The notes beneath the pieces are model-generated. The model was not told where the DNA came from, did no database searches, and worked only from the letters and a program-made list of their open reading frames with translations. From a virus: DNA of 28,450 bases. Positions 11,745 to 14,798 of this stretch are shown here, in pieces. The translations under genes and the position numbers were made by a program. Position 1 is the stretch's first letter, and each line of letters opens with the position of its first letter. The DNA lies in IMG/VR virus record IMGVR_UViG_3300006121_000036, positions 1-28,450 of that record. One strand, given 5' to 3'.

Positions 11745-11771
11745 TTACTCCTCGATCTCGATTCTTATCAT
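11745..11771 (-). other. 8-codon mini-ORF ending IEIEE
   Basis: ATG at 11771 overlaps the stop of the upstream gene (ATGA) and encodes MIRIEIEE, with TAA 3 bases before the next start. Its last 16 bases match the end of the 32-aa ORF at 12067, which also ends IEIEE. It may be a deletion remnant, or simply a duplicated ribosome-binding segment (ATCGAGATCGAGGAGT). Confidence 0.4.
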
Positions 11772-12064
11772 GGAAGTAACTCTCCGCTAACAAGGTTTCC
11801 GTGCCACCCGCAACGATTGGAGCAATTGATGCTGGGTGTTAGCGTCGGTGTATCTAAATTTCCGTCCCAGTGCCAAACTGGATGATCGGCAGGAGCCGTT
11901 GAGATACGCACGATACATCTATCAAACCGACCGCCACGGCACGGCAGTGCAATCGCTGACATATCGGCATTAAACGCAAATTCGTCTGGTTGATAAAGAT
12001 TCATGTTTTCAGACTGATCTGCTCGTAACTGTTGGTGTGTGCGTTCGCTTCTACGTAGTTTCAT
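11768..12064 (-). CDS. DUF6527-like small phage protein (98 aa)
   Basis: The start is taken at the ATG at 12064, which follows GAGGAGTGATT; 20 further upstream residues would come from the neighbouring frame. The C-terminal part HPVWHWDGNLDTPTLTPSINCSNRCGWHG matches the W.W.G....PTL.PSI......C.WHG pattern that I know from DUF6527-type phage proteins, with Cys and His placed as possible metal ligands. Role unknown. The next short ORF begins in its stop codon. Confidence 0.65.
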   Translation of the reverse strand: MKLRRSERTHQQLRADQSENMNLYQPDEFAFNADMSAIALPCRGGRFDRCIVRISTAPADHPVWHWDGNLDTPTLTPSINCSNRCGWHGNLVSGELLP

Positions 12065-12066
12065 AA

Positions 12067-12165
12067 TCACTCCTCGATCTCGATTGGATAAGCCTTGCCG
12101 CCGATTCGTTTGGGGTTGTCCCATTGTTTTGTATCGTTTGCAAGCAATTCATATTTTTTGTTCAT
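12067..12165 (-). CDS. Micro-protein (32 aa) ending IEIEE
   Basis: ATGA overlap with the gene at 12162, and the next start follows 2 bases after its stop. Encodes MNKKYELLANDTKQWDNP, then RIGGKAYPIEIEE. The opening (KKYELLANDTK) resembles the first residues of a larger phage protein type (.KYTLL.DDTK), so it may be a shortened relative. Tight coupling on both sides supports translation. Confidence 0.5.
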   Translation of the reverse strand: MNKKYELLANDTKQWDNPKRIGGKAYPIEIEE

Positions 12166-13679: not shown

Positions 13680-13853
13680 TTATTCGATTATTTTATCTCT
13701 GTCAAGCGAGGGCGGTACAAACCCAAACCGTGCGAAGGTTTTAGCAACATTGGTTTCACTGGCCCGAACATATACGAAATCCGTATTGAGCAGACTAGCA
13801 TTATGCGCCTGGACACGTTGTAAATGTTCTATCTCTTGTTCAAATTCATCCAT
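13680..13853 (-). CDS. Small protein after the methyltransferase (57 aa)
   Basis: ATG at 13853 overlaps the methyltransferase stop by 8 bases. Encodes MDEFEQEIEHLQRVQAHNAS, continuing to NVAKTFARFGFVPPSLDRDK. The N-terminal part is a charged helix. No family recognised. The close coupling suggests a partner or regulator of the methyltransferase region. The opposite strand also holds an open frame here, which I take as incidental. Confidence 0.6.
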   Translation of the reverse strand: MDEFEQEIEHLQRVQAHNASLLNTDFVYVRASETNVAKTFARFGFVPPSLDRDKIIE

Positions 13854-14733
13854 GATTATTTCCTTTTAATAAATTCCATGCTGTTCTTGCCACTTCTGGA
13901 ACTTGTCCATTTCCAATGGATTTAAGTCTGTCCACCCTAGCGGCCACCCCATCAGCCACTCGACCCACGTTGGGTTCAACTGTCCACCAGTTTTGTGTTG
14001 ATTGTCCGTGTGCTGAACCGCTACATCCAGCGTGTCCCAGCTTATTTTTCCGTCCCTGATCCTGCCCCCTATGTAACCCCCTTTGTAATCCCTCGTTGAT
14101 GGTGTTGGCCACATACGATGGGGTGGTGGGTACACAACTTGTTCTCGCAACGTCGCGTGAGTCGATCTGCCCTGCCTGTTTTTGTCGTACTGCCTCTTGA
14201 GTGCTTCTGGTGATCGTGGTGCCAGCCCGTCCATCGCTGTGGGGGTGAGCCACAATCCAGATTCGCTCTCTTTGATGGGGCGCACCAACGTCTGCTGCTG
14301 ATACAATTCCCCACCTTGCGTCATACCCCAGCGTGGTAAGGTCGGCAAGGACTCGGTCAAGTCCCCGAACAAGGAGCATTGGGCTGTTTTCCACATAGAC
14401 GTATTGTGGTCGTACTTGGCCCACGATGCGCGCCATATGTTTCCACATACTGGATCGCTCTCCGTCCAATCCATCACCTCGTCCTGCGATTGAGATGTCC
14501 TGGCAGGGAAACCCGCCCGATACAACATCAACAATTCCTCGCCAAGGTTGTCCGTCAAAGGTTTGTACGTCATCCCAGATCGGGAAAGACGGGAGAACTT
14601 TGTCATTTTGTCGGGCGCACAATATGCTTGCTGGGTATGGTTCCCATTCAACGGCACAGACTGTTCGCCATCCAAGCAAATGTCCCCCAAGTATTCCTCC
14701 ACCAGCACCTGCGAAAAGAGCCAACTCATTCAA
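13846..14733 (-). CDS. Cytosine-C5 DNA methyltransferase (Dcm type)
   Basis: 295 residues from TTG at 14733 (MNELALFAGAGGG, the usual start of phage Dcm proteins). Motif I is LFAGAGGGILGG. Motif IV is GGFPCQDIS, with the catalytic Cys. Motif VI is VYVENSP. Motif VIII is QRERIWIVAH. The C-terminal RVDRLKSIGNGQVPEVAR is motif X. Between VIII and X lies the variable target-recognition region (~170-250). It methylates C5 of cytosine in a short site using SAM, probably to protect phage DNA from host restriction; no partner nuclease gene is visible. The whole gene is also read in a second frame (13866-14729). The start lies 24 bases after a terminator. Confidence 0.93.
   Translation of the reverse strand: MNELALFAGAGGGILGGHLLGWRTVCAVEWEPYPASILCARQNDKVLPSFPIWDDVQTFDGQPWRGIVDVVSGGFPCQDISIAGRGDGLDGERSSMWKHMARIVGQVRPQYVYVENSPMLLVRGLDRVLADLTTLGYDARWGIVSAADVGAPHQRERIWIVAHPHSDGRAGTTITRSTQEAVRQKQAGQIDSRDVARTSCVPTTPSYVANTINEGLQRGLHRGQDQGRKNKLGHAGCSGSAHGQSTQNWWTVEPNVGRVADGVAARVDRLKSIGNGQVPEVARTAWNLLKGNNHG
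13866..14729 (-). CDS. Overprinted protein in alternative frame of the methyltransferase gene (287 aa)
   Basis: The ATG at 14729 is 4 bases after the methyltransferase TTG and 8 bases from the shared GGAGGT. The frame stays open for 287 codons inside the Dcm gene. The product does not look random. NLGEELLMLYRAGFPARTSQSQ, WAKYDHNTSMWKTAQCSLFGDL, LPRWGMTQGGELY and LNPTWVEWLMGWPLGWTDL are phrases I know from a widespread group of phage proteins of unknown role. Here the last of these is encoded by the bases that give EPNVGRVADGVAARVDRL in Dcm. I infer that both frames are used. The alternative is that only Dcm is made and the family is a recurrent annotation of its shifted frame. Confidence 0.6.
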   Translation of the reverse strand: MSWLFSQVLVEEYLGDICLDGEQSVPLNGNHTQQAYCAPDKMTKFSRLSRSGMTYKPLTDNLGEELLMLYRAGFPARTSQSQDEVMDWTESDPVCGNIWRASWAKYDHNTSMWKTAQCSLFGDLTESLPTLPRWGMTQGGELYQQQTLVRPIKESESGLWLTPTAMDGLAPRSPEALKRQYDKNRQGRSTHATLREQVVYPPPHRMWPTPSTRDYKGGYIGGRIRDGKISWDTLDVAVQHTDNQHKTGGQLNPTWVEWLMGWPLGWTDLNPLEMDKFQKWQEQHGIY

Positions 14734-14756
14734 GAGTACCTCCGATATCAAAAGAT

Positions 14757-14798
14757 AAAAAAAACCCCTAGAACGTCCATTAAATCAATTCTAGGGGT
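14757..14798 (-). terminator. Intrinsic terminator between 14809 gene and methyltransferase
   Basis: On the minus strand ACCCCTAGAA (14798-14789) and TTCTAGGGGT (14773-14764) make a perfect 10-bp stem with a 15-nt loop, followed by a run of T (14764-14757). It stops or attenuates transcripts from the divergent region before the methyltransferase, leaving only 24 bases for any separate promoter. Confidence 0.85.

Follow-up and report, generated by a model that had tools for sequence, protein, structure and literature searches.

Over the full length of a phage gene for a C5-cytosine methyltransferase, a second reading frame on the same strand also remains open. This raises the question of whether the second frame is maintained as a gene and, if so, whether its product is an unrelated protein overprinted on the methyltransferase or a part of the same enzyme. 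The window (the whole stretch of DNA that was analyzed) is the 28,450-base virus record IMGVR_UViG_3300006121_000036 of IMG/VR, positions 1 to 28,450.

Locus and shared start

The two frames lie on the minus strand at 13846-14733, with frame 2 being +1 relative to frame 1. The first-pass annotation had reported same-strand frames of 295 and 287 codons together with a set of quoted motifs; both frames were confirmed to be open on this strand, and every one of the motifs was found in them. Frame 1 encodes the alpha chain (13846..14733, 295 codons), a C5-cytosine methyltransferase with motifs I-VIII and X. An alternative extent of this frame runs from an upstream TTG (13846-14751), and the alpha start is probably the TTG at 14733-14731, which is the one matching relatives. 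Frame 2 encodes the beta chain (13866..14729, 287 amino acids), which is supported by a PHROG 1008 match, a stop deficit, and purifying selection and has an ATG start 4 nt past the alpha start. The two start codons and a common ribosome-binding site were read from the sequence as GGAGG-tactc-TTG-A-ATG (14727..14743).

In 137 of 165 loci, the beta ATG is preceded at a distance of exactly 4 bases by the alpha NTG (ATG, GTG or TTG), giving NTG-A-ATG-AG, and 130 of the 165 have a Shine-Dalgarno-like string upstream of the double start. Beta also has its own conserved start, M-S-W. As read from this arrangement, one ribosome-binding site would load both frames. The extension of beta to the alpha start is a feature of the window's lineage; many distant bacterial relatives have a shorter beta in which the recognition/motif IX part is open.

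Directly upstream of the common start, a perfect 9-base inverted repeat (CCCCTAGAA/TTCTAGGGG) precedes a run of eight T on the minus strand (14757..14797). It resembles an intrinsic terminator and may end transcription of the upstream gene or act as a leader element. RecT- and RecE-like genes share the strand of the locus and lie downstream of it, terminase and portal genes are encoded on the opposite strand, and no restriction enzyme was recognized among the neighboring window genes searched. A DUF6527 protein is encoded at 11768-12124 of the window.

Stop codons and selection in both frames

Eighty viral loci were fetched with the frame-1 protein and were therefore not picked for frame 2. 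Frame 2 was open over nearly its full length in all but about one of these, with 0-3 stops located at the edges (about 5-10 were expected from codon shuffles), and the third frame held about 20 stops per gene. Expected counts per region were obtained by synonymous resampling of 68 distinct Dcm genes picked by frame 1. The core contained 1 frame-2 stop against 237.6 (sd 12.3) expected, and the middle contained 0 against 89.3 (sd 8.9); stop-broken copies of frame 2 in homologous dcm genes, which would have spoken against the overprinting proposed by the first-pass annotation, were nearly absent over these two regions. Monomeric C5-methyltransferases from 143 gammaproteobacterial genomes served as a negative control. 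Their frame-2 stops mostly came to about the expected number (a few genes were significantly below), in none of them was frame 2 open full-length, and many showed the canonical motif IX in frame 1. The openness of frame 2 is not due to chance.

Selection was measured with an overlap-aware test that classes each difference in 78 independent pairs as synonymous or non-synonymous in either frame. Among changes that are non-synonymous in frame 1, the frame-2 ratio of non-synonymous to synonymous rates (dNN/dNS) was 0.50 in the core, 0.27 in the middle, and 0.15 at the end; part of this sample, which consists mainly of metagenome contigs, was picked via frame 2, and the loci picked by frame 1 only agreed (0.47, 0.21, and 0.13, respectively). 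Controls gave ratios above 1: 1.6-4.8 for the third frame, 1.05-2.4 for simulated selection on frame 1 only (a second parameter set being covered only in part), and 1.48 for 58 pairs of ordinary non-overlapping flanking genes (95% interval 0.99-2.16). Frame 1 was constrained everywhere in the same 78 pairs, most weakly in the middle (core 0.07, middle 0.40, end 0.10). Purifying selection acts on frame 1 and on frame 2.

A core ratio of 0.5 could in principle be a mere effect of stronger constraint on frame-1 codon position 2. This artefact was discarded because of the simulation and the flanking-gene controls.

Conservation of the two frames by region

Because module clusters built from frame-2 similarity are biased towards frame 2, pairs of modules were re-picked only by nucleotide identity (55-65%). 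In these pairs, amino-acid identity in the middle was 0.65 for frame 2, 0.29 for frame 1, and 0.31 for the non-coding frame 3. The order was reversed in the core, where frame 1 reached 64% and frame 2 reached 35%. Since the identities reverse between regions, the core (motifs I to VIII, 14257..14733 on the minus strand) is written in frame 1, with frame 2 less conserved there, and the middle is written in frame 2. Conservation in the middle third resides in frame 2; frame 1 there is a filler that is no better conserved than the third frame. The end region is written in both, frame 1 giving motif X and frame 2 giving LNPxWVEWLMGWP. Secondary overprinting appears to be limited to the part of frame 2 that lies over the catalytic core.

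Assignment of the two chains

Alpha matched Pfam PF00145 (DNA_methylase, 2.6e-31), limited to the N-terminal two thirds, as well as PHROG 363, and it matched M.HhaI across motifs I-VIII. Motifs I, IV (PCQ), VI (ENS/ENV), and VIII (QRxR) are present. Motif X (GNxV) occurs as IGNGQVP within VDRLKSIGNGQVPEVA (13888..13935, minus strand), where the columns are nearly invariant among relatives. Canonical motif IX was absent from frame 1 (3 of 56 alphas passed P<0.05 with a motif IX matrix), and the alpha middle was predicted to be disordered (pLDDT about 40 in structure prediction).

Beta matched PHROG 1008 at 2e-25, a family labeled 'DNA methyltransferase', and also several families with no known function. 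Frame-2-like proteins are represented in databases by PHROG 1008, 26627, 35493, and 27243; these entries and the record of Paenibacillus phage Sitara are labeled as an internal gene, as a DNA methyltransferase, or as having no known function, and the descriptions seen made no mention of a split enzyme. Searches of Pfam and NCBIfam with beta returned nothing, a sequence search of the PDB returned one match at chance level, and profile-profile comparison with monomeric C5-methyltransferases gave no homology. A fold search with the beta structure model gave no match and was uninformative, because the model was too poor (pTM 0.29).

Putative recognition modules and a motif IX-like end in beta

The beta middle consists of 1-6 segments that each start with WPTP or similar, and 445 distinct modules were cut from 197 betas. 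The window beta has two on the minus strand: putative recognition module 1 (14112..14252, beginning WLTPTAMDGLAPRSPEALKRQ) and putative recognition module 2 (13983..14111, beginning WPTPSTRDYKGGYIGGRIRDGKISWDTLDV). Module 2 was 70-86% identical in enzymes with cores only 32-41% identical to that of the window. For module 1, 24 matching modules were found, and the ten in the most distant enzymes were 50-54% identical with cores at 36-40%. Modules are common to enzymes with very different cores, which is the behavior expected of target-recognition domains.

Beyond the modules, a motif IX-like segment (LNPTWVEWLMGWPLGWTDL) is located at 13923..13979 on the minus strand, and its columns are nearly invariant. 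A motif IX matrix built from 14 monomeric enzymes scored highest at LNPxWxEWLMGWP in 64 of the 77 betas; among the 56 alphas, its best window fell on the LMG motif once. Scores in beta were about -2 bits, against mostly 25-58 bits for real motif IX, and 46 of the 77 betas passed P<0.05. The segment has the place and spacing of motif IX. From its sequence, the end of beta is likely to be motif IX, an identity kept at that strength because of the low matrix scores, the lack of a profile-profile match, and the poor beta model. An origin in which motif IX was shifted out of frame via a compensated pair of frameshifts is consistent with these data.

Homopolymer tracts were observed inside the alpha/beta gene of ten loci (G9-G14 and C11; L045-L051, L053, L057, and L059), lying within about 30 nt after motif VIII in L045-L051 and L053. 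L047-L051 carry natural in-frame fusions of the core with a recognition module and motif IX, located at tracts of 9-14 G. In one of these (L051, G9), the core, recognition module, and motif IX share one frame; in its near-identical sister (L053, G10), the beta frame is continuous. The difference between the two may reflect phase variation or a homopolymer assembly error.

Distribution and annotation

Beta matches occurred in 351 loci. In 346 of these, the match sits over a C5-methyltransferase ORF at a relative frame of +1, and two more (L306 and L325) were found on inspection to lie over a C5-methyltransferase gene as well, for a total of 348. Beta lies over alpha remnants in another two (L363 and L364). 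The sole beta-like tail found apart from a methyltransferase gene in the 351 loci was in L362. There, a 443-amino-acid ORF (1-1329) combines an N-terminal part that appears HNH-like by eye with a beta-like C-terminal tail (LNPEFVCWLMGFPKEW) and has no alpha frame. Judged by eye, the alpha/beta remnant of L363 is a degenerate C-terminal one and comes after an ORF for an adenine/N4-type methyltransferase.

Bacterial loci, classified by title, came from Proteobacteria, Verrucomicrobia relatives, Actinobacteria, Cyanobacteria, Bacteroidetes, Nitrospirae, Eubacteriales, and others. In three classes, beta matches were found in 9 of 274, 10 of 240, and 11 of 245 genomes (each count includes the center genome, already known to match). 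Stops within the beta matches from these genome searches fell near both alpha ends in most loci examined, outside the recognition/motif IX part. E. coli chromosomes yielded only two partial DNA matches to a Peduoviridae relative (L070).

The first-pass annotation had held that this protein family arose by overprinting of phage dcm genes or is maintained in that form, and that it is not an independent gene. Maintenance by overprinting stands, given the near-constant position over a C5-methyltransferase gene (348 of 351) and the purifying selection on frame 2. The restriction to phage dcm was too narrow, as the loci span many bacterial phyla and the middle third is conserved in frame 2.

Annotation usually calls alpha alone (e.g., in plasmid records). 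The beta frame is annotated and the alpha frame is left without annotation in Kosakonia phage Kc259 (L066 1441-1932), and the second frame is annotated as 'g59 internal gene' in Paenibacillus phage Sitara (L065 1150-1854). The annotated examples looked at were orphan phage or prophage genes with no recognized restriction enzyme adjoining. No description of this widespread phage group was found in the open-licence papers searched.

Interpretation

The most probable product of the locus is a C5-cytosine methyltransferase of two chains whose reading frames overlap completely, with beta giving the recognition modules and motif IX. Alpha would be the catalytic chain with motifs I-VIII and X, beta would supply the target-recognition modules and motif IX, and both would start 4 bases apart from one ribosome-binding site. 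The chains would then assemble and methylate DNA as an orphan enzyme. We infer that both chains are produced, that alpha and beta form a complex, and that the DNA target is recognized by beta. A role for frame 2 within the same enzyme, suggested by the recognition modules, the motif IX-like end, and the parallel with M.EcoHK31I, had been missed in the first-pass annotation.

A wider generalization is more tentative, and we consider it possible but on balance doubtful. It would describe a large, cross-phylum class of C5-methyltransferases with recognition modules in an alternative frame, each beta comprising 1-6 shuffled modules with their own targets. Overprinting in this class would be mutual (beta over the core, an alpha linker over the modules), and some lineages would use slippery G tracts where core and modules meet to toggle between two separate chains and a fusion of core and module.

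A functionally unrelated protein (e.g., counter-defence or regulatory) that was overprinted on dcm and retained for a function of its own is probably not what frame 2 encodes. This explanation, which we regard as unlikely, would suit the beta half over the catalytic core, for which there is no known methyltransferase counterpart, and the lack of a recognizable fold in beta. It is countered by the finding that beta is virtually never away from a C5-methyltransferase gene and that its conserved part lies exactly between motifs VIII and X, where a recognition domain and motif IX belong. Module swapping, the natural in-frame fusions to the core, and the precedent of M.EcoHK31I (PMC3404938) also argue against it.

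Ribosomal or transcriptional frameshifting from frame 1 into frame 2, giving one chain with the core, modules, and motif IX, is judged rather improbable, even though L047-L051 carry fusions of exactly this composition at their G tracts. A frameshift product would need neither the stop-free and selected frame 2 over the core nor the separate M-S-W start. M.EcoHK31I consists of two polypeptides (PMC3404938), and the loci whose gene contains a long homopolymer tract do not include the window.

That only Dcm is functional and frame 2 is open through codon bias is refuted as stated by a stop deficit of over 200, by frame-2 selection measured against three controls, and by the greater conservation of frame 2 than frame 1 in the middle, even with frame-2 runs of up to about 180 codons (longer in very long genes) being reached in monomeric enzymes.

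If the locus does encode a two-chain methyltransferase, the specificity determinant of a widespread phage/prophage group is missing from most annotations, and the methylation targets of such enzymes could not be predicted correctly from the annotated 'Dcm' protein. The locus is a clear long same-strand overlap in bacteria and phages with selection measurable in both frames. It offers a test case for one DNA stretch serving two proteins that are predicted to interact.

Comparison with known methyltransferases

The multispecific methyltransferases of Bacillus phages (SPR, phi3T) carry several exchangeable recognition modules in a single frame and a single chain. The modules described here are instead in an alternative frame, and an individual target for each is only putative. 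M.AquI, a two-subunit C5-methyltransferase, is a natural split enzyme, as is proposed for the locus here.

M.EaeI is also a two-polypeptide C5-methyltransferase, as is M.EcoHK31I, the target of which is YGGCCR. Lee, Kam and Shaw reportedly described in 1995 that the small chain of M.EcoHK31I is encoded in an overlapping, different frame; the second chain here is likewise encoded in an overlapping frame of the first. The two polypeptides of M.EcoHK31I divide the motifs so that I-VIII and X are in the larger chain and IX is in the smaller chain, and its predicted recognition domain was placed in the larger chain (PMC3404938). Alpha here similarly has motifs I-VIII and X without IX. In contrast to that placement for M.EcoHK31I, the predicted recognition modules are in the second chain here. 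Beta moreover equals alpha in length, with the two starts 4 nt apart, and the annotated examples looked at are orphans rather than neighbors of a recognized restriction enzyme. By layout, the locus is probably a member of the M.EcoHK31I-type two-polypeptide methyltransferases.
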